Part shown: in pieces, positions 1 through 26,746 of the stretch
Numbering within the stretch: position 1 is the first letter of the stretch
Layout: each line of letters opens with the position of its first letter
Assembly (NCBI GenBank): GCA_012517255.1
Contig: JAAYVH010000325.1
Coordinates: 1 to 48,032 of the forward strand
DNA from: Chthonomonadales bacterium
Lineage (GTDB): Bacteria > Armatimonadota > Chthonomonadetes > Chthonomonadales > CAJBBX01
Reading direction: 5' to 3'
Length of the DNA stretch: 48,032 nucleotides
Notes under the pieces: generated by a model
The model's input: the letters and a program-made list of their open reading frames with translations, nothing else
What the model was told of the DNA's origin: nothing
Databases searched by the model: none
Position numbers and translations under genes: made by a program

Positions 1-123
1 CGGGCATCGCGCGCTCTCGCAGACAGTGTGGAGCGAGGCAGCGCGAATCATGTTATCCACCTCGGCGACGATGGCCGGGCTGGGAATGCGCTTGGTGAGC
101 CAGGAAGGTAAGTTGCGATTCAT
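1..123 (-). CDS. lipA: Lipoyl synthase LipA, N-terminal 41 residues (partial)
   Basis: Reading leftward from ATG at 123-121 gives 41 codons open to the window edge. The start is NLPSWLTKRIP and the visible end is LHTVCESARCP. LipA proteins begin this way: the Cx4C (Cys35, Cys40) is the start of the Cx4Cx5C motif holding the auxiliary [4Fe-4S] cluster that is consumed as sulfur donor. The enzyme is a cytosolic radical-SAM protein that inserts two sulfurs into octanoyl groups on the E2 and GcvH proteins. The radical-SAM core lies outside the window. An AAGG ribosome site sits just upstream of the ATG, and a promoter is at 143-171. It is divergent from hpnC. Identity rests on a short stretch, but the motif is characteristic. 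Confidence 0.85.
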   Translation of the reverse strand, partial: MNRNLPSWLTKRIPSPAIVAEVDNMIRAASLHTVCESARCP

Positions 124-142
124 AGAGAGCCTTTCTGTGTGT

Positions 143-171
143 AGCGTACCGGATAGGCACTCAGGCGTCAA
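143..171 (-). promoter_or_regulatory. Sigma70-type promoter of lipA
   Basis: On the minus strand TTGACG (171-166) is followed by a 17-base spacer and TACGCT (148-143), then 19 bases to the lipA start. The -35 matches five of six consensus bases and the spacing is optimal. Seen in sequence; transcription is inferred. Confidence 0.7.
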
Positions 172-186
172 GACTTCACGGGGCAC

Positions 187-1206
187 GTGGACACTCACGA
201 GAGAGGCATACCGGAAATGCCGGAACGGTCACAGACCGACCTCGGGCCGAGGCCAGAGCCTCGCGACGCCCCGAAGGCTGGGCCGAGAGACGCCGTACCC
301 GAGGCTGTGCCGTATGACACGCGGTATGCCGTAGATCGCCCCTTCGGACTCCGAGAAGCCCGTCAGTATTGCCGCCGTCTTGCGCGGTCCCACTATGAGA
401 ACTTCCTCGTGGGCACGCTGTTTGTTCCCCATCATCTCCACGAGCACTTCCACAGCATCTATGCCTATTGCCGCGTCGCGGATGACCTCGCCGACGAGAG
501 CCCTTCGCCTGAGCGGGCTCTGCAGCTTCTGGATTGGTGGGAGCGCGAGCTAGACCTCGCCTACGCAGGCGCTCCTCGTCACCCGGTGTTTGTCGCGCTC
601 GCCGAGACGGTGGTAACGTTCGGCATCCCCCGCCAGACGCTTGCGGACCTCCTCGTCGCGTTCCGCCAGGATCAGGTTGTCCGTAGGTATGACACCTTCG
701 ATCAGCTCCTTGACTACTGCCGCCACTCCGCGAATCCCGTCGGTCGCCTCGTGCTTCACCTGTTCGGGTACACCGATGATCATCGCCGATGTCTCAGCGA
801 CGCCACGTGCACGGCCCTGCAGCTCGCCAACTTCTGGCAGGATGTCGTGCCCGACTTCGAGCGAGGACGCATGTACATTCCTGCAGAGGACATGCGGCGA
901 TTTGGAGTGACCGAGGAGCAGATCGCCAACCGCGAGTGCACGTCGGGCTTTCGGGAGCTTCTGAAGTTCGAATGCGCCCGCGCGCGCGAGCTCTTCAGCC
1001 ATGGGTCTGCGCTTGCCTCCGTGGTGCCGGGGCGTCTGCGGCTCGATGTGGAGATGTTCACCGAGGGAGGCCTCGAAGTGCTTCGTCGGATCGAGCGACA
1101 GGGATACGACGTCCTCAGCCGTCGTCCAGCCATCCCCAAATCGCGCCAGGCGGCTCTCCTCATCGGCAGGCTGGCACGTTCGCTTACGCCATGGTCTCGC
1201 CGATGA
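187..1206 (+). CDS. hpnC: Hydroxysqualene synthase HpnC
   Basis: A trans-isoprenyl diphosphate synthase of the squalene/phytoene synthase fold. In the HpnCDE route HpnC converts presqualene diphosphate to hydroxysqualene. The first Asp-rich motif is DDLADE, after YAYCRVA. The second is NFWQDVVPDFERGRMYIP, whose FWQDV form is typical of HpnC rather than HpnD. Length is 339 residues from GTG at 187. About 50 N-terminal residues are Pro- and Arg-rich and unlike the family, so ATG 217, with GAGAGAGG upstream, is an alternative start. The stop overlaps the hpnD start as ATGA, so the two are probably translationally coupled. The family is clear; the HpnC/HpnD split is supported by gene order and motif wording. 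Confidence 0.9.
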   Translation: MDTHERGIPEMPERSQTDLGPRPEPRDAPKAGPRDAVPEAVPYDTRYAVDRPFGLREARQYCRRLARSHYENFLVGTLFVPHHLHEHFHSIYAYCRVADDLADESPSPERALQLLDWWERELDLAYAGAPRHPVFVALAETVVTFGIPRQTLADLLVAFRQDQVVRRYDTFDQLLDYCRHSANPVGRLVLHLFGYTDDHRRCLSDATCTALQLANFWQDVVPDFERGRMYIPAEDMRRFGVTEEQIANRECTSGFRELLKFECARARELFSHGSALASVVPGRLRLDVEMFTEGGLEVLRRIERQGYDVLSRRPAIPKSRQAALLIGRLARSLTPWSRR

Positions 1207-9862: not shown

Positions 9863-10879
9863 ATGAACATCGTGCAGACCCACGAGCTGACGAAGATCTA
9901 CAACAACAAGGTAATCGCCGTCAACGGCGTGAACCTTTCGGTCGAGCAAGGGTGCATCTACGGCCTGCTCGGGCCCAACGGAGCCGGCAAGACCACTCTG
10001 CTGAAGCTCCTGATGGGTCTGCAGCGGCCGACGGCCGGCCGGGCGGAGGTGTTCGGCAGTCGCGTGACGCCGAACGCCGCCCCGATCCGCCAGCGCGTCG
10101 GGTACCTCCCCACGAACCCCAAGTTCCCGCCGCACCTGAGCCCCATCGCCTATCTCGATCTGATCGGACAGCTCTTCGGGATGCCTGCCGAGGAGCGCAA
10201 GCCGCGTCTCGCCTCCCTCATCCGCGCGGTTGACCTTCTCGGAGCAGCATCACGCCCCATCCGCAGCTTCTCGACCGGCATGACGACGCGCCTGGGCATC
10301 GCGGCTTCTCTCATCAATGACCCGGAGCTGCTCATCTGGGACGAGCCCACGGCCGGCCTCGATCCGGCTGGCAGGAAATACACGCTCGATCTCATTCGGG
10401 AGCTCGGCAAGACCAAGACGGTCATCGTCTCGTCACACATCCTTTCCGACATTGACCGCGTGTGCTCGCATGTCGGGGTGCTGCATGACGGACAGATCAT
10501 CTACTCAGGATCGGTTCGTGAGCTCAAGCAGACCATCGGTCGCAATCATGTTGAAATGGAAGTGGACGCCCCTGACGAGAGCCTGGCGCGTCTGGAGGCC
10601 TGGCTTGAGGCCTCCCCCGACGTCATCGGGCATGCGATGCGCGGCGACTGGCTGGAAGTTCGGTTCAACCCGGAGTCCGAGCTCGCACAACCCTTAGTGC
10701 GGACGCTGCAGGCAGCCGCCGATTGCGGGGTCAGCGTCGTGTCGCTGAGTTCGACGAAGGCACAGACCGAGGACGCATTCATACAACTATTGGAGGCAGA
10801 TCAGGCCGATGGATTCTCACGCGCCTACAACACCGTTCGTGCGCAGCCTGCTGGCGTCAACGGCGCTGATCAAGGCTGA
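9863..10879 (+). CDS. ABC transporter ATP-binding protein
   Basis: A 338-residue ATPase of the ABC-2 exporter class, acting at the inner face of the membrane with the permease that follows. Walker A is GPNGAGKTT near residue 37, the signature loop is the variant FSTGM, and Walker B with the catalytic Glu is LLIWDEPTAGLDP; the switch His is in VIVSSHIL. The roughly 110 residues after the ATPase core (VEMEVDAPDESLARLEAWL onward) form the C-terminal domain common in ABC-2 ATPases. Substrate is unknown. The 3' end overlaps the permease start by 71 bases. It is divergent from guaB. Confidence 0.94.
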   Translation: MNIVQTHELTKIYNNKVIAVNGVNLSVEQGCIYGLLGPNGAGKTTLLKLLMGLQRPTAGRAEVFGSRVTPNAAPIRQRVGYLPTNPKFPPHLSPIAYLDLIGQLFGMPAEERKPRLASLIRAVDLLGAASRPIRSFSTGMTTRLGIAASLINDPELLIWDEPTAGLDPAGRKYTLDLIRELGKTKTVIVSSHILSDIDRVCSHVGVLHDGQIIYSGSVRELKQTIGRNHVEMEVDAPDESLARLEAWLEASPDVIGHAMRGDWLEVRFNPESELAQPLVRTLQAAADCGVSVVSLSSTKAQTEDAFIQLLEADQADGFSRAYNTVRAQPAGVNGADQG

Positions 10880-12203
10880 CCTCGCGCAACTCGCACGCAA
10901 CTGGGTCCTGCGCGGGTGGCTGATCGCGCTCGTCCTCGTGCTGTTCTTTGGGCTGACATCCACCCTCGTGGGAGCTCGTCTGATGAGCGTTCCCGCCAGT
11001 ACGGTGGTAACCACGACCCTCGCAGGCTTCCTCGTGATATGGAGCATGGTCATCATCGTCCTGAGCGCCGGTTCGGTGGGTCCCGAGGCAGACATTGTCT
11101 CGGACAGCATTCTGAGCCGAGCCTGCACCCGAAACCAGTACATTGTGGCCAAGCTCATCTCGCGCGTGATCGTGGTCCTCGGCGTCTACACCGTTGCTGC
11201 CTCCGTCGCAGGCTTCGCAGCCTATCGGTACGCAGCGTGTGATGTCACCGTATCCACGCTGATTGTCGGCATCTCCATCGTCGGTCTCGCTATCTTGCTG
11301 CTCGTCACGTTCGGCGTGCTGTTCAGCGTGATGTTCAACAACACCATCGTCTCTGTCGTGGCCCTGCTCCGGCTGTGGTATGTGGCTTCGCCGGTCTTCA
11401 GCTTTCTCGGCGCGGAGTATCTCTCTCCAGCAAGTCTGATCCGCAACTTGCCGGCAATCCTCAAAGACCCTCATGCTCCGCAGGTAGTGGAATGCTCCGC
11501 GACGCCGACCAGCATCAACGTCGTCTTCTCCAAGCATGTGGACCCGCGCTCGGCAGAGAATCCGGGCAACTACACGATTGAATGTCCGCCAGGCGTCAAC
11601 CACATGGCCGAGGCCGCCACCTATGACCGGACGAAGACAACCGTCGTGCTCAGTGGCCTCACGCTGACTGCGGGCGAGACGGTGCAGGTCACGGCTCGGG
11701 GCGTGACCGATCCGGGCGGCACTCAGGTGAGCGCTGCCTCAGACACGGCGACGTGTGTGGTTCCCGGCGAGAAGCCCGCGGCCGCCAAGCCCGCGGCGAA
11801 ACCATCTCAGGCTGACAAGACGCCTCCCAGACTGGTCCGCATGGAGGCTGCAATGTCGAGCATCCGGGTGACGTTCAGCGAGCCGCTCGACCCCGACGAT
11901 GCAGAGGACACCGCCAGCTATCTGATCGAGAACCCCGTCGGACGCCAGCATGCTGCGCGCGCCGCTACCTACCGAACGGACAACCGGAGCGTCCTGCTGA
12001 GCGGTCTCGACCTCGATCTCAACGTGCCCATCAAGGTGACGGTGAAGGACGTTCGCGATGTCGCGGGCAATGCGATCTCCGCGCGAGGCAACTCGCTGGT
12101 GCACAGCGAGGTGACGCCCTGGAAGTATGTTCTGGGCTTCGGCTTGCCGGCGCTCATCGCAGCCGCGCTTGCCGTTGCGTGGTTCAACCGGAGGGACCTC
12201 TAG
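10809..12203 (+). CDS. ABC-2 type permease with two inserted Ig-like domains
   Basis: A 464-residue membrane protein. Five hydrophobic segments lie at roughly 35-55, 64-86, 112-138, 148-172 and 176-200, and a sixth at 438-457 just before the end FNRRDL. Between the fifth and sixth lie two similar units of about 95 residues (223-318 and 339-434), joined by an Ala/Lys/Pro linker. Each unit has a VxFSxxxDP strand, a TYxxxxxxVLLSGL-type strand and a VTVKDVRDVAGN-type ending, as in SbsA/Big_5 Ig-like domains. By topology they should lie outside the cytoplasm. ATG 10809 has GGAGG 12 bases upstream; even GTG 10839 would overlap the ATPase gene. Substrate unknown. Confidence 0.88.
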   Translation: MDSHAPTTPFVRSLLASTALIKADLAQLARNWVLRGWLIALVLVLFFGLTSTLVGARLMSVPASTVVTTTLAGFLVIWSMVIIVLSAGSVGPEADIVSDSILSRACTRNQYIVAKLISRVIVVLGVYTVAASVAGFAAYRYAACDVTVSTLIVGISIVGLAILLLVTFGVLFSVMFNNTIVSVVALLRLWYVASPVFSFLGAEYLSPASLIRNLPAILKDPHAPQVVECSATPTSINVVFSKHVDPRSAENPGNYTIECPPGVNHMAEAATYDRTKTTVVLSGLTLTAGETVQVTARGVTDPGGTQVSAASDTATCVVPGEKPAAAKPAAKPSQADKTPPRLVRMEAAMSSIRVTFSEPLDPDDAEDTASYLIENPVGRQHAARAATYRTDNRSVLLSGLDLDLNVPIKVTVKDVRDVAGNAISARGNSLVHSEVTPWKYVLGFGLPALIAAALAVAWFNRRDL

Positions 12204-12290: not shown

Positions 12291-14099
12291 ATGCCCGAAG
12301 TCCAATCCATTCTAGCCACCGACTGCGGAAGCACCACCACCAAGGCGATCCTTATCGAGCGGCGGGGCGACGAGTATCGGCTCGTTGTCCGCGGCGAAGC
12401 CCCCACCACGGTTGAAGCTCCCTTCGACGATGTGACCGTCGGCGTCCTGAACGCTGTACGCGAAGTCGAAGAGCTATCCGGCAAGAAGTTGATCGGCGAT
12501 GAGGGCCGTGTGATCACCCCGTCCGCCGACGGCCAGACCGGCGCTGACCTCTACCTCTCGACATCCAGCGCAGGCGGCGGCCTCCAGATGACCGTCGCCG
12601 GTGTGGTCAAGGCCATGAGCGCCGAAAGCGCTCAGCGAGCCGCTCTGGGAGCCGGCGCCATCATCATGGACGTGATCGCCGTGGACGATGGTCGCCGGGA
12701 CTTCCAGAAGGTCGAGCGCATACGGGCGCTGCGCCCCGACATGATCCTCGTGTCGGGCGGCACCGACGGCGGCACGATCAATCACCTCGTCGAGCTCGCG
12801 GAAATGCTGGTGGCCGCCGATCCCAAGCCCCGTCTCGGCATCGGCCTCAACCTGCCGGTGATCTATGCGGGGAACAAAGATGCCTATCCGGCGGTCGAGG
12901 ACCTCCTCAAGGGCAAGGTTGCCCTCCGCCAGGTCGAGAACCTCCGCCCGACATTGGAGCGGGAGAACCTTCTGCCGGCGCGCGAGGCCATCCACGACCT
13001 GTTCCTCGAGCACGTCATGCAGCAAGCTCCGGGCTACAGCAAGCTCTCTTCCTGGGTCAGCGCCGGCATCATGTCCACGCCGAATGCCGTGGGCAAGATC
13101 ATGCAGACGATCGCTGCCCAGCGGAACATCACGGTGCTGGGCGTGGACATCGGCGGCGCAACGACGGACGTGTTCTCGGTGTTTCGGAACCCCAAGGGCG
13201 AGAGCATCTACAACCGCACCGTGTCGGCCAACCTCGGCATGAGCTACTCGATCTGCAACGTGCTCACCGAGGCGCGCTCCGAGAACATCCGACGCTGGCT
13301 GCCCATCGAGATATCCGAAGAGGAGCTGCGCAATCAGCTCCGCAACAAGATGATCAGACCCACCACGATCCCTCAGCGGCTGGCCGATCTGCACATCGAA
13401 CAGGCGGTGGCGCGCGAAGCCCTTCGATTGGCCTTCGAGCACCACAAGTCCCTCGCTCGCGGGCTCACGGGCATTCAGCAGCAGCGAACCATCGGCGACG
13501 CCATGACGCAGGAGGGTTCGGGCAAGACCCTCGTCGACCTGATGGCCCTCTACATGATCGTGGGAAGCGGCGGAGTGCTCTCGCACTCGCCCAGGCGCGC
13601 GCAAGCCGCCATGATGATGATGGATGCCTATCAGCCGGAAGGGGTCACCCTGCTGACCGTGGACTCGATCTTCATGATGCCGCAGCTCGGCATCCTCTCG
13701 ACGGTTCACCCGGCCGCCGCCACGCAGGTCTTCGAGCGCGACTGCCTCGTGTATCTGGGCACATGCATTGCTCCCGTCTGCGCCGGGCGTGACGGCGACG
13801 TCTGCGTTACCGTCAAGGTAGGTTCCGAGACTGTCCCGGTGCCATTCGGAAGCCTCCGCGTCATCCCCCTTGGCTACGACGCCGACCACAACCCGCTGCG
13901 GGTCGAGGCCCACATTCAGCCTGCACGCGGCTTCGATGTCGGCGCCGGCCGCGGCAGAGCTAAGGATGTCACGGTTACCGGCGGCGAGGTCGGGGTGATC
14001 ATTGACGCCCGAGGACGTCCCCTGACCCTTCCTCAGGACGATACGGCTAGCGTGACCCGCGTTCGCGAGTGGTATGCGGCGATGGGTCTGCCGGTATAA
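12291..14099 (+). CDS. glmL: GlmL/MutL-like ASKHA ATPase (glutamate mutase accessory family)
   Basis: A 602-residue protein of the family named for GlmL (MutL), found beside glutamate mutase and thought to help keep or repair its B12 cofactor. Phosphate-binding motifs of the actin/hexokinase fold are visible: ATDCGSTTTKAILIE at the N-terminus and LGVDIGGATTDVFSVFRNP near the middle. LVSGGTDGGTINHLVELAE is also family-typical. No glutamate or methylaspartate mutase (glmS/glmE) or downstream enzyme is in this window, so the partner is unknown. Two genes downstream of its neighbours is a conserved unnamed protein that I recall beside such MutL genes elsewhere. Not the mismatch-repair MutL. Confidence 0.85.
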   Translation: MPEVQSILATDCGSTTTKAILIERRGDEYRLVVRGEAPTTVEAPFDDVTVGVLNAVREVEELSGKKLIGDEGRVITPSADGQTGADLYLSTSSAGGGLQMTVAGVVKAMSAESAQRAALGAGAIIMDVIAVDDGRRDFQKVERIRALRPDMILVSGGTDGGTINHLVELAEMLVAADPKPRLGIGLNLPVIYAGNKDAYPAVEDLLKGKVALRQVENLRPTLERENLLPAREAIHDLFLEHVMQQAPGYSKLSSWVSAGIMSTPNAVGKIMQTIAAQRNITVLGVDIGGATTDVFSVFRNPKGESIYNRTVSANLGMSYSICNVLTEARSENIRRWLPIEISEEELRNQLRNKMIRPTTIPQRLADLHIEQAVAREALRLAFEHHKSLARGLTGIQQQRTIGDAMTQEGSGKTLVDLMALYMIVGSGGVLSHSPRRAQAAMMMMDAYQPEGVTLLTVDSIFMMPQLGILSTVHPAAATQVFERDCLVYLGTCIAPVCAGRDGDVCVTVKVGSETVPVPFGSLRVIPLGYDADHNPLRVEAHIQPARGFDVGAGRGRAKDVTVTGGEVGVIIDARGRPLTLPQDDTASVTRVREWYAAMGLPV

Positions 14100-14160
14100 G
14101 AGAGGCGTTGGGCGCGTCCGGCTCGCACATCGGACGGCAGCCCCATAGGAGATGATGAAC

Positions 14161-15624
14161 ATGCGCACACGCTTTGGCGTTCTGATCGGTCTGGTTGCCG
14201 CCGCCACGCTGGCGGCATCGGCGTCGGCCGAAGTGAAACTTTCACCCATGTTCGGCGACCACATGGTGCTCCAGCGCAACATGCGCGCGCCGATCTGGGG
14301 CACCGCGGATCCGGGCGAGTCCGTCACGGTGGCCATCGGGCCGCGCAAAGTCGTCGTCCGAGCCGACAACTCGGGCAACTGGATGGCGCGCGTGGGTCCG
14401 TTCCCGGCGGGAGGCCCCCACACCATCACCGTGTCTAGCCCGGCCAACAGCATCACGCTGTCCAATGTGCTGTTCGGCGAGGTGTGGATCGCTTCGGGCC
14501 AGAGCAATATGGAGTGGCCTCTGGCTGCGGTTCGCAATGCCGACTATGAGGTTCGCAACGCCGCCAATCCGAAGATACGCCTGTTCGTGGTAGCCAAGGC
14601 GGTGAAGCCCGAGCCCACGCGGGAACTGGTCGGCTCCTGGGCCGAGTGCACTCCCGAGACCGCTCGCGGCTTCTCGGCTGTCGCCTACTTCTTCGGGCGC
14701 GCCCTCTTCCGACGACTACAGGTCCCCATCGGGCTCATCGAGACCGCGTGGGGCGGAACGCCCGCCGAGTCCTGGACGGCTCGCAAATGGCTGGAGTCCG
14801 ATCCCGATCTGAGCCCGATGCTCGCAAGGATCCCGCCTCCAGGTCAAACCGTCAAGGCCGATGATCCTTCGAAGCCCGCCTGGGACGCCTGGACGCCCAC
14901 CGGACTCTACAACGCGATGATTGCCCCCGTGGCGCCCTACGGCATTGCCGGGGCCATCTGGTACCAGGGCGAGTCGAACGCCAGCCGGGCCTACCAGTAC
15001 CGCAAGCTTTTCCCGGCCATGATCCGCTGCTGGCGCGAAACCTGGGGCCAGGGCGACTTCCCGTTCATCTGGGTACAGCTAGCCAACTTTATGAAGCGCC
15101 AGCCGGAGCCGGGCGAGAGCGCGTGGGCCGAGCTCCGTGAAGCTCAGACCATGACGTTGAGCCTGCCCAAGACCGGTCAGGCCATCGCGATTGACATCGG
15201 CGAGGCCGACGACATTCACCCGCGGAACAAGCAGGACGTAGGCATCCGCCTGTGCCTCGTGGCTCAGCACATGCACTACGGTGACAAGGATGTTGTGGCG
15301 TCGGGGCCGACCTATAAGAGCATGTCCATCAAAGGCTCCCAGGTGACCCTGACCTTCACCGACATTGGCGGAGGACTGATGACGCGCGACGGTCTGCCCC
15401 TCGCAGGGTTCGCTGTGGCAGGCGCCGATCGCAAGTTCCACTGGGCTCAGGCCAAGATCGTCGGCTCGACGGTCGTCGTCTCCTGTGATGCCGTGGAGAA
15501 CCCTGTTGCCGTTCGCTATGGATGGGCCGACAACCCGAACTGCAACCTCTACAACGCCGCAGGGCTGCCGGCCGGTCCGTTCCGGACAGACAACTGGCCC
15601 GGACTGACGGTGAACAACAGGTAG
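14161..15624 (+). CDS. Secreted sialate O-acetylesterase-like SGNH hydrolase
   Basis: A 487-residue exported carbohydrate esterase family protein. A signal peptide is evident (MRTRFGVLIGLVAAATLAAS, cut near ASASA-EV). After an N-terminal beta domain (GDHMVLQRNMRAPIWGTADP) the SGNH core follows: WIASGQSNMEWPL with nucleophile Ser115, WGGTPAESWTA, IWYQGESNA, and DDIHPRNKQDVG carrying the catalytic Asp/His. ATG 14161 is preferred over 14152 and 14155 since TAGGAG then sits nine bases away. The true substrate may be an acetylated glycan other than sialic acid; the family name is broader than its activity. Confidence 0.9.
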   Translation: MRTRFGVLIGLVAAATLAASASAEVKLSPMFGDHMVLQRNMRAPIWGTADPGESVTVAIGPRKVVVRADNSGNWMARVGPFPAGGPHTITVSSPANSITLSNVLFGEVWIASGQSNMEWPLAAVRNADYEVRNAANPKIRLFVVAKAVKPEPTRELVGSWAECTPETARGFSAVAYFFGRALFRRLQVPIGLIETAWGGTPAESWTARKWLESDPDLSPMLARIPPPGQTVKADDPSKPAWDAWTPTGLYNAMIAPVAPYGIAGAIWYQGESNASRAYQYRKLFPAMIRCWRETWGQGDFPFIWVQLANFMKRQPEPGESAWAELREAQTMTLSLPKTGQAIAIDIGEADDIHPRNKQDVGIRLCLVAQHMHYGDKDVVASGPTYKSMSIKGSQVTLTFTDIGGGLMTRDGLPLAGFAVAGADRKFHWAQAKIVGSTVVVSCDAVENPVAVRYGWADNPNCNLYNAAGLPAGPFRTDNWPGLTVNNR

Positions 15625-16351: not shown

Positions 16352-17497
16352 GTGGGAACTGCATATACTCCGGGGCTGAAAGTTAGCTCCAGCACGGTGA
16401 TCGAGAAGACGCGCCGTCTGCCCCTCAAGGGCACGGTTCTTGTGAAGGTCGGCGATCGCGTTGAGCCCGACACGATCGTTGCCCGCACGGAACTCCCCGG
16501 GCCGATGCAGACCGTGAAGCTCGCCGAGCAGATGGGCGTGGAACCCGCCGAAGTCAAGGCCGCTTTGAAGGTCTCGGTGGGAGACACCGTGGAGAAGGGC
16601 ACGCTGCTTGCCCAGACCAAAGGGCTGTTCGGATGGTTCAAGAGCGAGTTTCGATCGCCGGTTGCCGGCAAGATCGAGATGCTCTCCGAACAGACGGGTC
16701 ACCTTGGCATTCGCATGCCGCCGACGCCCGTCGAGAAGGATGCCTACATCAGAGGCACCGTCAAGGAGGTGATCCCGGAGGAGGGAGTTGTCGTGCAATG
16801 CCGGGGAGCGCTCGTTCAGGGCATCTTCGGCGTCGGCGGCGAGCGTCAGGGCCGCATCGCGGTAGCGGTCGATTCGCCCGACGCTGTGCTCACCGACACA
16901 GTCATCACCGCCGAGCATGCAGGCTGCATCGTCGTCGGCGGTTCCAACGTGACCGCGCGAGCCTTGCGCAAAGCAGCCGAGGTCGGCGCTGCCGCCATCG
17001 TCGTCGGCGGCATCGTGGATCGTGATCTCATCGAGTATCTGCGCGAGACGCTGAAGGACCCTTCGTTCGACATCGGCGTCGCGATCACAGGGCATGAGCC
17101 TGTGCCGTTCACAATCGTCGTCACCGAGGGGTTCGGGACGATCCGCATGGCGGGCCGCACGTTCGATCTGCTGCGGTCGCTCGGTGGCGCCTCCGCATCC
17201 GTCAACGGTGCCACACAGATTCGCGCTGGCGTGATCCGTCCCGAGGTCATCGCCCCTTCCGAAACCGACGAAGCCATCCGCGTTGACGCGCCGGAGTCCG
17301 GCCAGCTTCTCGAAGGCACCCACATACGCGTGATCCGAGAGCCCTATTTCGGCGAGCTGGGAGTGGTTACGGCGCTGCCGCCCGAGCTGCAGCAGGTGGA
17401 CTCCGAGACCCATGTGCGTGTCCTGCATGCACGCCTCGAAGATGGCCGCGACGTTGTGGTGCCCCGGGCCAACGTCGAGATCATCGAGGCAGCCTGA
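16352..17497 (+). CDS. Conserved protein of unknown function with hybrid-motif and KOW-like domains
   Basis: A 381-residue soluble protein with no assigned function. The N-terminal 100 residues contain two short halves rich in Gly, Pro and Val (PLKGTVLVKVGDRVEPDTIV and FRSPVAGKIEMLSEQTG), like the barrel-sandwich hybrid fold of biotinyl/lipoyl and RnfC-type domains. No lipoylated or biotinylated Lys motif is evident. The middle has ALVQGIFGVGGERQGRIAVA and GAAAIVVGGIVDRDLIEYL. The last 60 residues look like a KOW-type beta barrel (GTHIRVIREPYFGELGVV to VVPRANVEIIEAA). GTG 16352 has GAGG nearby. I recall similar proteins next to GlmL/MutL genes in other phyla. Possibly a partner of the ATPase at 12291-14099. 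Confidence 0.8.
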   Translation: MGTAYTPGLKVSSSTVIEKTRRLPLKGTVLVKVGDRVEPDTIVARTELPGPMQTVKLAEQMGVEPAEVKAALKVSVGDTVEKGTLLAQTKGLFGWFKSEFRSPVAGKIEMLSEQTGHLGIRMPPTPVEKDAYIRGTVKEVIPEEGVVVQCRGALVQGIFGVGGERQGRIAVAVDSPDAVLTDTVITAEHAGCIVVGGSNVTARALRKAAEVGAAAIVVGGIVDRDLIEYLRETLKDPSFDIGVAITGHEPVPFTIVVTEGFGTIRMAGRTFDLLRSLGGASASVNGATQIRAGVIRPEVIAPSETDEAIRVDAPESGQLLEGTHIRVIREPYFGELGVVTALPPELQQVDSETHVRVLHARLEDGRDVVVPRANVEIIEAA

Positions 17498-17796: not shown

Positions 17797-18324
17797 ATGA
17801 CCGTCGCACCCCCTGAAAAGCCGGCAGAAGCCGGCAAGCCCGTCGCCAAGGGGCATCCCAGCGGCGACAACCGGTTCAAGATGCTCGAAGCCACGATGAA
17901 GCGGCATCAGTATCAGGCGGACGCCCTCATCGAGGTCCTTCATACGGCTCAGGAGCTCTTCGGCTTCCTCGAAATGGACCTGCTTCTGCACATCGCCCAC
18001 AGCCTGAAGGTTCCGCCGAGTCGCGTGTTTGGCGTAGCCACGTTCTATCATTTCTTCTCGCTCAAGCCTCAAGGCGAGCATACGTGCGTCATCTGCATGG
18101 GCACGGCATGCTACGTCAAGGGCGCCGGCAATCTGGTTGCCGCCATCGAGCGTCAGTGCAACATCAAGGCTGGCGAGACCACGCCCGACGGCAAGGTCTC
18201 ACTGATCACGGCCCGTTGCCTCGGCGCCTGCGGCATAGCTCCCGCCGTTGTGCTCGATGGGCAGGTGGCCGGCTACCAGACGCCCGAGTCGCTGACCGAG
18301 ATTGTGAAAGGCTGGATGTCCTGA
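17797..18324 (+). CDS. hoxE: Bidirectional hydrogenase diaphorase subunit HoxE
   Basis: A 175-residue thioredoxin-like [2Fe-2S] protein of the NuoE/HoxE family. Ligands are in [11 protein letters not shown] and [11 protein letters not shown]. It has the usual N-terminal helical part ([20 protein letters not shown]) and the family stretch [20 protein letters not shown]. In five-subunit Hox enzymes HoxE belongs to the diaphorase and passes electrons between NAD(P)H and the hydrogenase. The TGATG junction couples it to hoxF. Lead gene of hoxEFUYH after a long leader. A complex I NuoE is excluded by the hydrogenase subunits next door. Confidence 0.95.
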
Positions 18325-19946
18325 TGGACCTATCCGATCTCCAGGAAATCGCGCAGAAAGAGAATGCAGCCGCCAAGCCGATGCGCATCCGATGCTGCAC
18401 GGCCGCGGGCTGTCTCTCTCAGGACGGCCAGGCGCTCAAGAAGGCGCTGGATGAAGCCGTCGCCGCCGAAGGGCTCTCCGATAAGGTGGAAGTCGTCGGC
18501 GTTGGATGCATGGGGCTGTGCAGTCAGGGACCGCTCGTCCAGATAGACCCCGACGGCCCGCTCTACGAGAAGGTGACCCCTGCGGACGCGCCATCCATCA
18601 TCGCGTCGCTCAAGGGCGAGAAGTGCAAGGCCCGTGTGGGTGACCCCACCATACCGTTCTTCTCGAAGCAGGTTCCCATCGTTCTCGAGAACAGCGGGCG
18701 GATCAACCCCGAGCGAATCGAGTCCTACATCGCCGTGGGCGGCTATCAGCCGCTATGCCATGTCGTTCGCGAAATGCAGCCCCTCGAAGTGTGCGACCTG
18801 ATCACGAACAGCGGGCTGCGTGGCCGAGGAGGCGCAGGCTACCCCACGGGGCTCAAGTGGGCGACCGTCGCCAAAACCGACGCGGAGCGCAAGTTCGTCG
18901 TCTGCAACGCGGACGAAGGCGACCCCGGCGCGTTCATGGATCGCTCCGTTCTCGAGAGCGACCCGCACCGGGTCCTCGAGGGCATGGCCATCGCGGCCTA
19001 CGCGGTCGGCGCCAGCCAGGGCTATGTATATGTTCGCGGCGAGTATCCGCTCGCTATCAGCCGCCTCAAGACCGCCATCGCCCAGGCCCGGCGCCTGGGC
19101 ATTCTCGGCACGGGCGTGTTCGAGACGCGCTTCGACTTTCGCGTGGACATCCGCATCGGCGCGGGCGCTTTCGTCTGCGGCGAAGAGACGGCCCTGATGC
19201 GTTCCATCGAGGGTCAGCGCGGCACCCCCCGACCCCGACCTCCGTTTCCTGCGGCACGTGGTCTCTGGGGCTACCCGACCGTGATCAACAATGTGGAGAC
19301 GCTGGCCAACGTTCCGGCGATTGTGAGAAACGGCGCAGAGTGGTTTGCCAGCATCGGAACCGAGAAGAGCAAGGGTACCAAGGTCTTCGCTCTGGCCGGG
19401 AAGATCACGAATACCGGACTGATTGAAGTGCCCATGGGGACCCCGCTCAAGACCATCGTCGAGGAGATGGGCGGCGGCGTTCCCGATGGCGGCAAGGTCA
19501 AGGCCGTGCAGACGGGCGGGCCATCGGGCGGATGCATTCCCGCCGAGCGCTTCGACACGCCGGTGGACTACGAATCCCTCGCGCAACTCGGCTCCATCAT
19601 GGGATCGGGCGGCATGATCGTCATGGACGAGAAGGACAACATGGTGGACGTTGCCCGGTTCTTCATGGAGTTCTGCATGGACGAGTCCTGCGGCAAGTGC
19701 GTCCCGTGCCGCGCGGGCACGGTGCAGATCTATGAGATCCTGACCAAGATCCGCGAGGGGCGCGGCAAGCCCGAGGACCTCGAGGTCCTGCGTGAGCTGT
19801 GCGACATGGTGAAACAGACGAGCCTGTGCGGCCTCGGTCAGTCGGCGCCGAACCCCGTGTTGAGCACGCTGCGCTACTATCGGCATGAGTATGACGCCTT
19901 CATCACGGCCAAGTCGGGCAAGGCCGAAGCGGAGGCGAACGCATGA
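18324..19946 (+). CDS. hoxF: Diaphorase flavoprotein HoxF (NuoF-like)
   Basis: A 540-residue subunit holding FMN, the NAD(P)H site and Fe-S clusters; it oxidises or reduces nicotinamide for the hydrogenase. The first 100 residues are a thioredoxin-like [2Fe-2S] domain (CCTAAGC and VGCMGLC). The NADH/FMN core follows with [29 protein letters not shown] and [19 protein letters not shown]. Near the end [13 protein letters not shown] and [13 protein letters not shown] provide the [4Fe-4S] ligands. ATG 18324 shares one base with the hoxE stop (TGATG). Longer readings begin inside hoxE and are not real. Cofactor preference for NAD or NADP cannot be read from the sequence by eye. Confidence 0.96.
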
Positions 19947-19972
19947 TAGCCCGAACGAACGAGGACAGATAG

Positions 19973-20689
19973 ATGGCCGTCAAGACACTCACGATAGACG
20001 ATAAGCCGGTGTCGGCGCGCGAGGATCAGACCATTCTGGAAGCGGCGCGTGAAGCGGGCATCGGCATTCCCACGCTCTGCCAGCTCTCTGGCGTGGCCAA
20101 CCTCGGCGCCTGCCGATTGTGCCTGGTGGAAGTTGCCGGCGTGCCCAAGCTGCTGCCCGCCTGTGTGACCCTCGTGCAAGAGGGCATGCAGGTGTTCACC
20201 AACACCGAACGGCTGCGCGAGTACCGCAAGATGATCGTCGAGCTGCTGTTTGCGGAGCGCAACCATGTATGCGCCGTCTGCGTGGCCAACGGACACTGCG
20301 AGCTGCAGAATCTGGCCATTGCAGTCGGCATGGATCACGTCCGCTACTCCTATCGGTTCCCCAAGCTCGAGGTGGACACGACTCACGAGAAGTTCGGCAT
20401 TGACCACAACCGGTGCGTGCTCTGCGCTCGGTGCGTGCGGGTCTGCGACGAGATCGAAGGCGCGCATACCTGGGACATCGCCGGGCGCGGCGCGAAGTCG
20501 CACATCATCTCGGATATGAATGTGCCCTGGGGCTCCGCCACTAGCTGTACATCCTGCGGCAAGTGCGTGCAGGCGTGCCCGACGGGCGCCATCTTCAAAC
20601 TGGGCGCGACGGTCGCCGAGCAGATCAAAGACCGCACGCGCCTGGACTTCATCGTGACGGCACGGGAGAAGAAACAATGGGTCGGCTGA
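19973..20689 (+). CDS. hoxU: Diaphorase iron-sulfur subunit HoxU
   Basis: A 238-residue protein related to the N-terminal part of NuoG. In order: a [2Fe-2S] ferredoxin domain ([14 protein letters not shown]), the His-Cys3 region ([15 protein letters not shown]), and a two-[4Fe-4S] ferredoxin domain ([17 protein letters not shown] and [16 protein letters not shown]). It wires HoxF to HoxY. No molybdopterin domain is present, which separates it from NuoG and formate dehydrogenase. It starts 26 bases after hoxF with a GAGGAC site, and its last 13 bases overlap hoxY. Confidence 0.95.
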
Positions 20690-21219
20690 GAGTAGCTACT
20701 GTCTGGATGGGCGGCTGCTCGGGCTGCCACATGTCGTTCCTCGACATGGACGAGTTCCTGATTGATCTCGCCGATCTGGCGGATGTCGTCTACAGCCCCG
20801 TGGCCGATCCCAAAGAGTATCCCGAGAACGTGGACCTGTGCCTTGTGGAGGGCGCCGTCGCCAACGACGAACATGTTGAGCTTGCTCACACCATCCGTGA
20901 GCGCACGAAGATCGTCGTGGCATTCGGCGACTGCGCCGTGACGGGCAATGTGACCGCCATGCGCAACCCGTTGGGAGCCGTTGAGCCGATCCTGCAGAGG
21001 ATCTACGTGGAGGCCGCCACGATCCATGGTCGGATCCCCTTCGAGAAGGGGATCGTGCCCGAGCTGCTGGATCGCGTCGCTCCGCTGCACGAGATCATCC
21101 CTGTGGACGCGTTCCTGCCGGGATGCCCGCCGCCTGCTCCCCGCATACGCAAGATGCTGGAGAAGATCGTGGCGGGCGAGCCTGCGGTCCTCGAAGGCGA
21201 CGATCTGAAGCCCGGCTAG
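20677..21219 (+). CDS. hoxY: [NiFe] hydrogenase small subunit HoxY
   Basis: A 180-residue small subunit carrying the proximal [4Fe-4S] cluster. Ligands are visible in [17 protein letters not shown], in [10 protein letters not shown] and in [12 protein letters not shown]. The short length, without extra C-terminal clusters or a Tat signal, fits soluble cytoplasmic group 3d enzymes. ATG 20677 lies within the hoxU end (13-base overlap) and begins exactly at the family start [14 protein letters not shown]. It is separated from hoxH by an unusual 145-base gap, while the genes before it are tightly packed. Confidence 0.96.
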
Positions 21220-21256
21220 TCGAGAACAGGGCTGAGCGCCAGTGAGCATCATCGCC

Positions 21257-21338
21257 GTTGCTTCGCTGCGCTCGCAAGGACGTGGTGCGCGACGCGATGA
21301 GCGCCTCGCTGGTACTCCCCCGATAGCGGGGGAGGCGC
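21257..21338. repeat. Repeat-like intergenic insertion between hoxY and hoxH
   Basis: The gap contains a stretch (21257-21282) whose complement reads CGTCCTTGCGAGCGCAGCGA and continues AGCAAC. It closely resembles a short intergenic repeat of the CGTCATTGCGAGCG type that I know from many unrelated genomes. It is followed by alternative hairpins: CTCCCCC-GATAGC-GGGGGAG (21315-21334), and GCGCCTC (21301-21307) with GAGGCGC (21332-21338), which share bases and cannot form together. No second copy was noticed in this window. Confidence 0.55.
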
Positions 21339-21364
21339 AACGACGATAAGGAGTAACCGATTCC

Positions 21365-22783
21365 ATGTCACAACGGATTGTGATAGACCCCGTCACGAGG
21401 ATCGAAGGCCACGCGAAGATCAGCATCTTCCTGGATGATGAGGGCCAGGTGTCCGATGCACGGTTCCACGTGACCGAGTACCGCGGCTTCGAGAAGTTCT
21501 GCGAGGGTCGCCCGTTCTGGGAGATGCCCGGCATCACGGCACGCATCTGCGGCATCTGCCCCATCAGCCACGTCCTTGCGTCTGCAAAGGCTGGCGACGG
21601 CATCCTCGCAGTGCAGATATCGCCGACCGCCAACAAGCTGCGTCGGCTCATGAACCTCGGTCAGATAACCCAGTCGCACGCGCTGAGCTTCTTCCACCTC
21701 AGCTCGCCCGACTTCCTGCTGGGGTTCGATAGCGACCCGGCAACGCGCAACGTGTTCGGTCTCATCAAGGCCGATCCCGAACTGGCCCGTCGGGGCATCC
21801 GGCTCCGGCAGTTCGGCCAGGATGTCATCAGCTATCTCGGCGGATCGAAGATACATCCGGCCTGGGCAACTCCCGGCGGCGTGCGCACGCCCCTTACCGA
21901 GGAAGCCAGAGCCGACATCAAGGCGCGGCTGCCCGAGGCATTCGAGACCACGCGCATCGCGCTCGATCTCTTCAAGAAGCTCCTGGACAAGTACGGACGT
22001 GAAGCGCACATCTTCGGTAACTTCCCCAGCCTGTTCATGGGCCTCGTGGGCCCCAACGGCGTGTGGGAACATCACGATGGCACCCTTCGCTTTGTGGATT
22101 CGTCCCGCAACATCATTGCCGACAACCTGCAGGCACGGGATTACCAGAGCTTTATCGGCGAAGCTGTCGAGCCGTGGTCCTACCTGAAGTTCCCCTACTA
22201 CAAACCCATGGGCTACCCCGACGGCTGCTATCGCGTGGGTCCGCTGGCCCGGTTGAACGTCTGCGACCACATGGGCACGCCTCAGGCGGACAAGGAGCTG
22301 AGCGAGTTCCGGAGCGCCTCGGGCGCAGTCAACTCGTCGTTCATGTATCATCAGGCGCGCCTGATCGAGATCCTGTGCGCCCTGGAGACCATTGAGATAC
22401 TGCTCGACGATCCCGACATCATGGGCGACAGGCTGCGAGCGGACGCCGGCGTCAACCAGCTCGAGTCGGTCGGCGTCAGCGAAGCTCCGCGCGGCACGCT
22501 GTTCCATCACTACAAAGTGGATCGGGACGGACGGCTCGAGTTCGTCAACCTGATCATCTCGACGGGCCAGAATAACGTCGCCATGAACCGGACCGTCGCC
22601 CAGATCGCCCGACACTACGTGCGCGGCCCCAAGGTTGAGGAGGGCATGCTGAACCGTGTCGAAGCCGGCATTCGATGCTTCGACCCATGCCTGAGCTGCT
22701 CGACGCACGCCCTGGGCCAGATGCCGCTGGAGGTGGACATCGTCAGCGCCGACGGCGAGGTGATCCGGCGCATCGCCCGCTAA
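21365..22783 (+). CDS. hoxH: [NiFe] hydrogenase large subunit HoxH
   Basis: The 472-residue catalytic subunit of the bidirectional hydrogenase. The N-terminal L1 motif [10 protein letters not shown] and C-terminal L2 motif DPCLSCSTH give the four Cys that bind the NiFe(CN)2CO centre. The start [14 protein letters not shown] is typical. After the L2 His come 24 residues ([12 protein letters not shown] onward) that the maturation protease removes after nickel insertion; the protease gene is next. Motif wording fits group 3d. GGAGT precedes ATG 21365. Together with HoxEFUY this makes a complete soluble NAD(P)-linked enzyme. Confidence 0.97.
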
Positions 22784-22794
22784 GGATGCCTGCT

Positions 22795-23295
22795 ATGGGA
22801 CCCACAGAGCCAACGGGACCCATATGCGATCAGAGGAGGCCGGAAGCTGCCGGCCTCCTCATTGTTGCTTACGGCAACGACTTGATGGGCGACGATGGCG
22901 CCGGACCTGCCCTTGCCGTCCAACTTGGCGACGATCTGCCCGAGGGGGTACGCGTGATCATCCGGCATCAGCTCACTCCAGAGCTTGCGGACGATGTGAG
23001 CCGGTCCGCCCATGTCGTGTTCGTTGATGCCAGAGTCCCCGATGGCAACCTCGATGCCGTCCTATCGCCGCTCGTCGGGCACGGCGCCGGCGCTATCGGG
23101 CATGTGTGCGATCCCGCATCGCTCATGGACATCGCGCGTACTGTCTTTGGAGCGGCGCCCGACGCATGGCTGCTGTCTCTGCCGACCAGCTCCATGGCTC
23201 TCGGCGAGGGTTTGTCCGAGATCGCGGCGGACGGCGTTCAGCACGGCATCAGCCTGTTGCGCCAGCACATGCGGTCGTTGGGCTACACTGCGTAG
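22795..23295 (+). CDS. hoxW: Hydrogenase maturation protease (HoxW type)
   Basis: A 166-residue endopeptidase that trims the C-terminus of HoxH once nickel is in place. The family signature is AYGNDLMGDDGAGPALA, with the metal-sensing Asp, and a second Asp in VVFVDARVPDG. The later family His (about 93 in HybD numbering) is probably the one in PLVGHGAGAIGH. ATG 22795 is favoured because AAGG lies nine bases upstream; ATG 22786 is the other choice. The first 24 residues are variable. It sits directly behind its likely substrate gene and four bases before hypA. Confidence 0.9.
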   Translation: MGPTEPTGPICDQRRPEAAGLLIVAYGNDLMGDDGAGPALAVQLGDDLPEGVRVIIRHQLTPELADDVSRSAHVVFVDARVPDGNLDAVLSPLVGHGAGAIGHVCDPASLMDIARTVFGAAPDAWLLSLPTSSMALGEGLSEIAADGVQHGISLLRQHMRSLGYTA

Positions 23296-23298
23296 GAT

Positions 23299-23640
23299 AT
23301 GCACGAACTCAGCTTGATGGACAATGTGCTGCAGATGGCCGCCGAGCATGCTCGGGCCCAGGAAGCCACCGCTATCCATAAGATCACCATGCGCATCGGT
23401 GATATGTCGGGCGTGTCCATTGATGCGCTGACGTTCGCGTTCGACGTGCTGGCTCGGGACACCATGGCGGCGGGAGCCGAGCTCCTGATCGAGCCGGTCA
23501 AGGCCCGTTGCCGATGCAAGGCCTGCGCTGCGGAGTTCACCCCCGACAGTCCCATCACCACCTGCCCGGGCTGCGGCGCTCCAGGTGCAACGCTGATCGA
23601 GGGCCGGGAGATCGAGCTCACGTCCATGGAGGTATCCTGA
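23299..23640 (+). CDS. hypA: Nickel metallochaperone HypA
   Basis: A 113-residue nickel-delivery protein working with HypB. MHELSLMDNVL at the N-terminus supplies the nickel ligands (Met1, His2, Glu3). The zinc site is two pairs, CRCKACAAEF and TTCPGCGAPG. Length is standard. It starts three bases after the hoxW stop. Confidence 0.96.
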   Translation: MHELSLMDNVLQMAAEHARAQEATAIHKITMRIGDMSGVSIDALTFAFDVLARDTMAAGAELLIEPVKARCRCKACAAEFTPDSPITTCPGCGAPGATLIEGREIELTSMEVS

Positions 23641-23682
23641 GGATTGAGCGAACCGGCGAAAGCGAGGATGAGAGATCGGAAG

Positions 23683-24393
23683 ATGAGTGATTCAGGCGCG
23701 CTGCGTACCATTGTGATCAAGGAATCAGTTCTCGACAAGAACCGAACCATCGCTCGAGCGAATCGCCAATGGTTCGATGAACGACGCTGTCTGGCGCTGA
23801 ACCTGCTTTCATCTCCGGGCGCTGGCAAGACCTCGCTGCTGGAGCGAACGCTGACCGACCTCGCAGATAGCCGGCGCATGGCGGTGATCGTCGGCGACCT
23901 CGCTACAGACAACGATGCTCGCCGCCTCAACGATCGAGGCGCGGCGATCGTTCAGATCAACACGCTCGACATCTGCCATCTCGACGCGGATATGGTTGCC
24001 CGAGCCTGCAGCACGCTCACGGAGGTCGAGCCCGAAGTCTGCTTCATCGAGAACGTGGGGAACATGGTGTGCCCGGCGTCGTTCGATCTCGGCGAGCATG
24101 CCCGCGTTGTGCTGCTGTCCGTAACGGAGGGCGAGGACAAGCCGGTGAAGTACCCCACCCTGTTCCGGACTGCCGATCTGGTCGTCATCACGAAGTGCGA
24201 CATAGCCGATGCCGTCGGCTTCGATCGCGACGCCGCAATCCGATCGGTAAGAGCCGTCTGTCCCGAGGCGGATGTTATCGAGGTGTCTGCCCGAACCGCC
24301 ACCGGTCTGAACGCCTGGTACGACTGGATCGAGAAGCGACGATCCCATGCAGGTTTCGGTCCATCCCCCGTCGAACATGGGACTCAGGAGTAG
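23683..24393 (+). CDS. hypB: Hydrogenase nickel-incorporation GTPase HypB
   Basis: A SIMIBI-class GTPase of 236 residues that powers nickel release from HypA into the hydrogenase. The P-loop is LLSSPGAGKTSLLERT, switch regions include VGDLATDNDARRL, and the metal/GTP-linked FIENVGNMVCPASFDLGEH and VVITKCDIAD follow. The N-terminal Cys-x-x-Cys-Gly-Cys nickel site and the His-rich stretch of some HypBs are absent. Start is uncertain: ATG 23683 begins near family similarity, ATG 23668 and TTG 23644 (GGAGG 11 bases upstream) are in frame. Confidence 0.95.
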   Translation: MSDSGALRTIVIKESVLDKNRTIARANRQWFDERRCLALNLLSSPGAGKTSLLERTLTDLADSRRMAVIVGDLATDNDARRLNDRGAAIVQINTLDICHLDADMVARACSTLTEVEPEVCFIENVGNMVCPASFDLGEHARVVLLSVTEGEDKPVKYPTLFRTADLVVITKCDIADAVGFDRDAAIRSVRAVCPEADVIEVSARTATGLNAWYDWIEKRRSHAGFGPSPVEHGTQE

Positions 24394-24466: not shown

Positions 24467-26746
24467 ATGAGTACACTGAGCAACGAGGCTCTGGCGTATC
24501 ACAGCCGCCCGCCAGCCGGCAAGCTGGAAATCGCACCGACCAAGCCCTGCAGTACCCAGAGAGACCTGTCCCTCGCGTATACCCCCGGCGTGGCAGAGCC
24601 GTGCCGGCGCATTGCAGCCAGTCCGGAGGACGTCTATCGCTATACCGCCAAGGGCAACCTGGTGGCGATCATCACGAACGGGACAGCCGTTCTCGGTCTG
24701 GGCAATATCGGCCCGCTAGCCGCCAAGCCGGTGATGGAAGGCAAGGCTGTGCTGTTCAAGCGGCTGGCGGACATTGATGCCATTGACATCGAGGTGAACA
24801 CCGAGGATCCCGACGAGTTCGTGCAGACGGTTCGACTGCTTCAGCCGTCGTTCGGCGGGATCAACCTGGAAGACATCCGCGCGCCCGAGTGCTTCGACAT
24901 TGAACAACGGCTGGAAGCCGCCTGCGACATTCCGGTCTTTCATGACGACCAGCACGGAACCGCCATCATCACGGGCGCGGCCCTCATCAACGCTCTGCAG
25001 ATAACGGGCAAGCGCATCGAAGACATTCGTATTGTCTTCATGGGCGCAGGCGCGGCCGCCATAGCCACGGCTCGCTTCTACCTGCTCCTCGGCGCTCGCA
25101 AGGAGAACATCGTTCTCTGTGACCGCACAGGCGTGGTCTACGAAGGCCGCGAAGAAGGCATGAACCCGGTGAAGCAGGAGTTTGCTGCGCGCACTGACGC
25201 GCGAACGGCCGCCGATGCGCTGGCGGGTGCGGACGTGCTAGTCGGGCTATCGTCGGCTGGCACCGTCTCGCAAGCCATGGTGAAGAGCATGGCGCCCCAC
25301 CCAATCATCTTCGCCCTCGCCAATCCTGATCCTGAAATTACCTTCGAGGAAGCGAGAGCCGCTCGGCCCGACGCCATCGTGGCAACAGGACGGTCGGACT
25401 TCCCCAATCAGGTGAACAACGTGCTGGGCTTCCCGTTCATCTTCCGGGGCGCGCTGGACGTGCGGGCCAGGTTCATCAACGAACCGATGAAGATCGCAGC
25501 TGCGCGCGCGCTCGCGGATCTGGCACGAGAGGATGTGCCGGATTCGGTCGTTAGCGCCTATGGCGGCTCCGCCCTTCAGTTCGGTCCCGACTACCTCATT
25601 CCCAAACCGTTTGACCCCCGCGCGCTTCTATGGGTTGCGCCGGCCGTGGCCCAGGCCGCGGTGGAATCGGGGGTTGCACGCATGCCGCTCGACGTCCCGC
25701 GGTATCGCGAGTATCTCGAAGCTCGGATGGGCAAGAGCCGCGAGATGATGCGCGTTGTGATGAACAAAGCCAAGCGCGCGCCAAGGCGCGTGCTGCTCGC
25801 CGCCGGCGATCACGAGAAGATGATCCGCGCTGCACATCAGCTTGCCGACGAGCGCCTCGCGCATCCGATCCTTCTGGGTGACCCGGACATCATCCGCCGC
25901 AAGGCGTCGGATCTCAGGATCGATCTCGGCGCTGTGCAGATCGCGGACGCATCCGACCCTGCGCTGCGGCAGCGATGCGCCGACCGGATCTATGAGCTCC
26001 GGTGTCGCAAGGGAGTGACGGCCTCGGAGGCCATGGACCTGCTGAACAACCATGACTACCTCGGCGCCGCCATGCTCGATCTCGGCGAGGCCGACGCGCT
26101 TGTGACGGGCCTCCAGCACAACTACGGCGATGCTCTTCGGCCCATGCTGGAGATCATCAAGGCCCTGCCCGACTGTCGTATCGCTGCCGGCGTCTACCTC
26201 ATCGCCACGCGCTACGACGTGCTCTTCTTCGCCGACGCTGCCGTCAACATTGACCCCGACCCCGACACGCTGGCCAACGTGGCCATACGCACGGCTCGAC
26301 TCGCGAGCGACTTCGACGTGACGCCCAGGATCGCCATGATCAGCTTTTCCGACTTCGGCAGCGTGCGGCACCCCGAGTCGGAGAAGGTTCGTCTCGCTGT
26401 CGAGCTCGTCCGCTTGCGCCAGCCGGACCTCATCATTGATGGCGAGATGTCCGTCGAGACTGCGCTGAGTACGGCAGCCCTGGTGGAGACCTACCCGTGC
26501 AACCGGCTGCGCCAGCGTGCCAACGTGCTCATTTTCCCGACGCTGTCGGCCGGAACTGTGGCATGTCATATCATGCACAAGCTCGCCAACGCCGACGTGA
26601 TCGGCCCGATCCTCGTCGGCATGCGCAAGGCGGTTCATGTTCTCATGCGCAGCGCGGAAGTGCAGGACATCGTTAACCTTGCCGCTATAGGCGTCGTTCA
26701 GGCCCAGCAGCGCGAGGCCATCAGCCACGAGATCCACTGGGCGTAA
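24467..26746 (+). CDS. maeB: Malic enzyme with phosphotransacetylase-like C-terminal domain
   Basis: A 759-residue cytosolic enzyme that converts malate to pyruvate and CO2 while reducing NAD(P). N-terminal malic domain: [28 protein letters not shown] and the metal-binding [13 protein letters not shown]. The nucleotide site is [14 protein letters not shown]. From about residue 430 to the end is the phosphate acetyltransferase-like domain found in MaeB hybrids ([40 protein letters not shown]), which senses acetyl-CoA in characterised members. It lies inside the hydrogenase maturation string, 73 bases after hypB and 57 before hypF, which is unusual. Confidence 0.96.

Follow-up and report, generated by a model that had tools for sequence, protein, structure and literature searches.

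A conserved partner of a GlmL-like ATPase in Armatimonadota and its eight-gene, membrane-associated system

GlmL has been proposed as a mutase chaperone or reactivase in glutamate fermentation, and a member of the GlmL/MutL family (PF13941, TIGR01319) is encoded in the 48,032-nucleotide stretch of a Chthonomonadales genome analysed here (the window). It resembles the family in being an ASKHA ATPase with intact phosphate motifs and a score far above the Pfam cut-off, but it is a long form with a C-terminal extension, falls below the GlmL equivalog cut-off, belongs to a phylum in which 250 of 251 genomes have no glutamate mutase E, and is encoded with membrane proteins and a 381-residue protein that we call by the working name P1. 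The N-terminal domain of P1 bears a weak to moderate likeness to the barrel-sandwich domain of RnfC and NqrA (PF13375, PF05896), but P1 has no SLBB, Fe-S or other RnfC/NqrA part and continues instead into an alpha/beta and then a KOW domain. Its C-terminal residues likewise superpose on the KOW domains of Spt5 and NusG, but P1 has neither an NGN domain nor a transcription gene context. DUF6754 (PF20539) is a Pfam family without described function, to which one product of the eight genes considered here belongs. These genes are 2TM, SM, GlmL, P1, DUF6754, D, E and F, where 2TM, SM, D, E and F are provisional names that we use here. Rnf, Nqr and ASKHA-driven activators offer a possible working analogy, in which a soluble module sits on a membrane complex or ATP drives a conformational switch; they differ in having no common subunit set with this system, and we claim no membership in them. 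The literature searched, which excluded subscription journals and preprints, held no paper on DUF6754 or on PF13941, PF20539 or TIGR01319, and its GlmL papers were irrelevant to the system. To our knowledge, no system with this combination of parts has been described and, because it nowhere shows the set of subunits that defines a known system, we count this one as new: it is undescribed in the searchable literature, and its parts have known folds.

In the window, the genes from GlmL to P1 lie on one strand with gaps of 41–53 nt (Table 1), and a scan for promoters and terminators yielded no excess of sites over shuffled sequence. The P1 reading frame is, on the evidence of its relatives, a genuine gene and not a chance frame. 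A public genome scan gave 12 full-length relatives with 49–84% identity, all sharing the start and the AYTPGL motif, and the wider set of 67 full-length relatives spans 45–84% identity. P1 was also found in a quarter (75 of 290) of the genomes in a broad sample outside its home phylum, and a plasmid search did not find it. The ABC ATPase and permease genes upstream of GlmL probably lie outside the eight-gene set, since they were found together solely in a near relative, L001. As candidate partners of P1, the ABC transporter and the esterase were rejected, being kept there only in L001 among 15 long-flank loci; neither the esterase gene nor the prepilin-like gene is a member of the set. A prepilin-like protein with one membrane helix does recur between GlmL and P1 in Chthonomonadales (L002–L006, L010 and L015), where it diverges fast (28–78% identity).

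Table 1. Positions of the features discussed. Plain nucleotide ranges refer to the window; G000 is the genome of the window.
Feature	Location	Strand	Basis or remark
ABC ATPase	9863-10879	+	upstream of GlmL
Permease with Big_5 domains	10809-12203	+	upstream of GlmL
GlmL/MutL-type ASKHA ATPase	12291-14099	+	PF13941, 1e-130, 436.9 bits
Sialate-O-acetylesterase-like protein	14152-15624	+	PF03629, 5e-20; between GlmL and P1; also in L001
Prepilin-like protein, 210 aa	15678-16310	+	one TM at residues 27-45; weak GspG match, E 0.006
P1	16352-17497	+	ORF with GTG start, 381 aa
P1 N-domain	residues ~11-130		barrel-sandwich; RnfC_N matches in relatives
P1 central domain	residues ~131-305		Gly-rich alpha/beta; weak PA-domain fold matches
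P1 C-terminal domain	residues ~320-378		KOW-like; Foldseek; Pfam KOW in 2 of 68 sequences
[NiFe]-hydrogenase cluster	17797-24393		300-nt gap after P1
Malic enzyme fused to phosphotransacetylase-like domain	24467-26746		after the hydrogenase genes
2-TM protein (2TM)	G000:C17:5740-6354		operon member
Small protein SM	G000:C17:6332-6733		operon member
DUF6754	G000:C17:6730-7512		PF20539, E 5e-96
Membrane protein D	G000:C17:7520-8338		operon member
Membrane protein E	G000:C17:8338-9183		operon member
Membrane protein F	G000:C17:9183-9839		operon member
Second DUF6754-D-E-F set of G000	C157 (L131:6409-10286)		D seems to hold a large insert
GlmL-P1 fusion ORF	L173:7826-10663		Fermentibacterota
GlmL-P1 fusion ORF	L174:492-3527		Fermentibacterota
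GlmL-P1 fusion ORF	L175:8132-11089		Fermentibacterota
GlmL-P1 fusion ORF	L176:3597-6686		Fermentibacterota

Three lines of evidence, from gene neighbourhood, gene fusion and joint loss, argue strongly that P1 is a partner of the GlmL-like ATPase. The sequence-only reading of this DNA had placed an esterase and a prepilin-like gene between the two genes here, where both are indeed found, and had stated that similar proteins adjoin MutL/GlmL genes in other phyla. A neighbour count bears this out. In 60 P1 loci fetched regardless of their neighbours from the 75 P1-positive genomes of the broad sample, GlmL was present on the same strand in 45, and in 41 of those it lay within 170 nt (the genes overlapping or at most 168 nt apart); well under one such case is expected by chance, given a span of a few kb and genomes of 1–7 Mb. 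P1 directly follows GlmL in Fermentibacteria, Coatesbacteria and one further bacterium, and four Fermentibacterota reading frames of 945–1029 aa join the two proteins, with the barrel part of P1 repeated and the KOW part missing. Genomes G357, G514, G525 and G390 have reading frames of comparable length with P1 matches, which may be fusions too. The genomes with the fusions also carry divergent DUF6754-E-F sets beside an SH3-like protein (L204–L206).

Among 179 near-complete Armatimonadota genomes, P1 was found in 169 and PF13941 in 167, and all ten genomes without P1 were also without PF13941 (for G185, and for G181 in some searches, absence was taken from tallies). Treated as independent draws, the two sets of absences would overlap in this way with a probability of 9e-15, a value that is too small given the relatedness of the genomes. 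The ten span four families, three of which (f2, f11 and f14) retain P1 and GlmL in other genera, and several separate losses of the pair are needed. The same reading had suggested that GlmL and P1 form an uncharacterised two-component module; the partnership stands, and the size has to be revised, as eight genes recur.

The order 2TM-SM-GlmL-P1-DUF6754-D-E-F is contiguous in L113, L115 and L119, and nearly so in L116, all from other Armatimonadota families. All eight genes occur together in 8 stretches from Armatimonadota and 15 of the 60 from the broad sample. G000 has all eight genes in a split arrangement, with GlmL and P1 in the window and the other six on C17. DUF6754 is present in 166 of the 179 near-complete Armatimonadota genomes and missing from the same ten as P1. 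Of the genomes checked for protein E, all 15 that keep P1 encode it and none of the 15 that lack P1 does. SM, whose gene was first noticed ahead of GlmL in two other lineages, occurred in all 15 P1-positive genomes checked and was absent from the three P1-negative ones. Many bacterial lineages thus keep or lose the system as a set, and operon conservation, joint loss and the GlmL-P1 fusion together support the view that the eight genes act together. A second DUF6754-D-E-F set occurs elsewhere in G000 (Table 1).

Hydropathy predicted membrane helices at both ends of the DUF6754 domain, six to seven in D and several in F. In E it predicted two, which enclose a large domain, and for GlmL, P1 and SM it predicted none. 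The model of DUF6754 (pLDDT 92.8) has a Rossmann-like sheet between membrane helices and weakly resembles Rossmann folds, and Foldseek returned no match below 1e-3 and no clear solved relative. Searches of Pfam and NCBIfam with SM, 2TM, D, E and F gave nothing usable. Two likenesses seen by eye were dropped: 2TM as a bacterial PH-domain protein had no support from a Pfam model, and a suspected homology of DUF6754 and E had none from hhalign.

There may be a link between the system and glycine or lipoyl metabolism. Of the 60 broad-sample loci, 10 have glycine-cleavage genes ending in gcvPB upstream and on the same strand, and six of these 10 have a lipoate-protein ligase gene on the opposite side. 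The run gcvT-H-PA-PB-lplA is directly upstream in all three Fermentibacterota loci, and in one Armatimonadota genome, G062 (L126), the gcv genes and the ligase gene adjoin the other half of the system. No gcv gene was found near P1 in 20 Armatimonadota P1 loci, mostly one per family. The linkage requires at least six changes on the P1 tree (bootstrap range 5–7), and may have had one old origin followed by losses. Because gcv genes are missing from the vicinity of 50 of the 60 broad loci, the metabolic link may reflect shared expression alone.

In the AlphaFold model of P1 (mean pLDDT 90.5, pTM 0.77), the N-domain is rich in beta structure and contains a short helical insert, the centre is alpha/beta, and the C-terminus is again beta-rich. 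Together with Foldseek, and Pfam searches of relatives, the model recovers the barrel-sandwich N-terminus, Gly-rich centre and KOW-like C-terminus that had been read from the sequence. The same reading had known of no role for P1, and in keeping with this, Pfam, NCBIfam, PDB chains and profile search gave no match to a family of known function. The best profile matches had E values of 0.058 or more, and one WD40 match, from a sequence look-up against PDB chains, was spurious. RnfC_N (PF13375) matched 47 of 68 P1 sequences at E<=0.01 (best 3.8e-7, in relatives) and NQRA_N matched 16 of 68; the P1 of the window itself scored 20.8 bits with PF13375, below the cut-off of 25.6. These matches would fit P1 as a peripheral, RnfC- or NqrA-like subunit of an Rnf/Nqr-type electron-transfer or NAD(H)-linked membrane complex, as would the weak resemblance of the DUF6754 domain to Rossmann folds. 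Glycine cleavage yields NADH, so the gcv linkage of the system also favours such a complex. We nevertheless regard it as unlikely: P1 scored 14.9 bits with the full-length RnfC model (TIGR01945), against a cut-off of 245.95, the 68-sequence alignment has no cysteine among its invariant columns, Pfam found no SLBB or Fe-S domain in the P1 of the window, and the operon has no recurring flavin or Fe-S subunit.

At the other end of P1, the last ~60 residues superpose on SPT5 KOW5 (8p4e_Z; TMt 0.85, rmsd 1.3, 60 columns), so that by Foldseek the C-terminus has a KOW fold. The first-ranked Foldseek match of the whole protein was NusG of T. maritima (E 2e-5). P1 could accordingly be viewed as a NusG/Spt5-like or ribosome-linked factor, with the KOW domain binding RNA or a ribosomal protein and the membrane genes serving to localise it, and the KOW domain is indeed compatible with nucleic-acid or ribosome binding. 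However, good superposition is limited to the KOW part (the NusG match runs via parts only, with a TM-score of 0.12–0.13), Pfam found no NGN domain in the window protein or the 68 sequences, and the partners of P1 are an ATPase and membrane proteins, making this reading quite unlikely. The centre of P1 matched the PA ectodomain of ZNRF3 weakly in Foldseek (prob 0.60–0.85, TMt ~0.33) and RraA in sequence at E 0.095 only. The 68-sequence alignment has 57 invariant columns, including the stretches TEGFG, NGATQIRAGVIRPE, REPYFG and PRANVE, and a dense invariant set lies in the centre (Q156, E164, the T246 region, E249, E259, Q289, R291, R296 and E298), which suggests a putative binding site rather than a passive linker.

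The window GlmL has 602 aa, with a C-terminal extension of ~117 aa, and carries the motifs DCGSTTTK (11), DIGGATTD (286) and GSGGVLSH (425). The phosphate-1, phosphate-2 and adenosine motifs of ASKHA proteins are retained in 58, 58 and 57 of 58 relatives, and because these ATP-binding motifs are nearly always kept, the protein is likely to be an active ATPase. It satisfies PF13941 (436.9 bits, cut-off 27), and among named models GlmL and ornithine Or-4 come closest to it. On these grounds GlmL and P1 might act on an adenosylcobalamin mutase as its chaperone or reactivase, with the membrane genes as bystanders. That is very unlikely, as the protein falls below both equivalog cut-offs (240.9 bits against 475 for GlmL, NF040745), and glutamate mutase E (PF06368), the only B12 enzyme surveyed, occurs in 1 of 251 Armatimonadota genomes and not in G000, against 225 of 251 for PF13941. 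Moreover, the constant neighbours are membrane proteins, not mutases, and are lost along with P1. The name GlmL is therefore misleading here and is not to be read as denoting a glutamate-mutase protein. Two Armatimonadota genomes, G063 (L047, L211) and G055 (L048), have an additional, higher-scoring PF13941 protein; G063 is the sole genome with a PF06368 match and may carry a true glutamate-mutase set. Finally, almost every genome of the phylum carries P1, PF13941 and PF20539 (229, 225 and 220 of 251 genomes), so that their joint presence says little, but mere core-genome ancestry, without a common function, is an extremely improbable explanation in view of the joint loss across four families, the tight operons of many deep lineages and the fused genes.

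The membership of P1 in the eight-gene system is well supported; for its mechanism and substrate, we infer the following. P1 is probably a constant cytoplasmic subunit or adaptor that couples the ASKHA ATPase to an inner-membrane system, perhaps one linked to glycine or lipoyl metabolism. By analogy with other ASKHA proteins, GlmL would bind and hydrolyse ATP, opening and closing as it does so. P1 would dock on GlmL, and its barrel-sandwich and KOW surfaces could relay the movement to the Rossmann-like cytosolic domain of DUF6754. The movement would also reach the membrane core of D, E and F, in which the alpha/beta domain of E is placed outside the cytoplasm, and GlmL and P1 would thus constitute a cytoplasmic, ATP-driven module on that core. 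Because the gcv operon and lipoate ligase flank the system in several lineages, we propose that it may move or gate a substrate with a connection to glycine, lipoyl or one-carbon metabolism. More tentatively, a repurposed GlmL-type ATPase and P1 could conceivably be the basis of a widespread inner-membrane machine that has so far gone undescribed, is driven by ATP, and transports or gates a metabolite from glycine cleavage or from one-carbon/lipoyl metabolism.

Retention of the set in about 90% of Armatimonadota, and of P1 in 75 of the 290 broad-sample genomes, indicates that the system is likely important to the cells that carry it. Since its ATPase matches models named after a glutamate-mutase helper, metabolic reconstructions would be led astray in Armatimonadota and in several candidate phyla. 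The genes to be targeted by deletion, co-purification and assay follow clearly from the operon, the fusion and the glycine-cleavage link.

A very divergent P1 subfamily, on a tree branch of 2.9, is represented by L294 and L295, where the other seven genes are not nearby. Downstream of P1 in the window is a bidirectional NAD-linked [NiFe]-hydrogenase cluster that encodes HoxE, a NuoF-like protein, HoxU, the small and large subunits, a maturation protease, HypA and HypB, and whose catalytic subunits best match Vhu/F420-non-reducing hydrogenase models. It is followed by the gene for a malic enzyme fused to a phosphotransacetylase-like domain.
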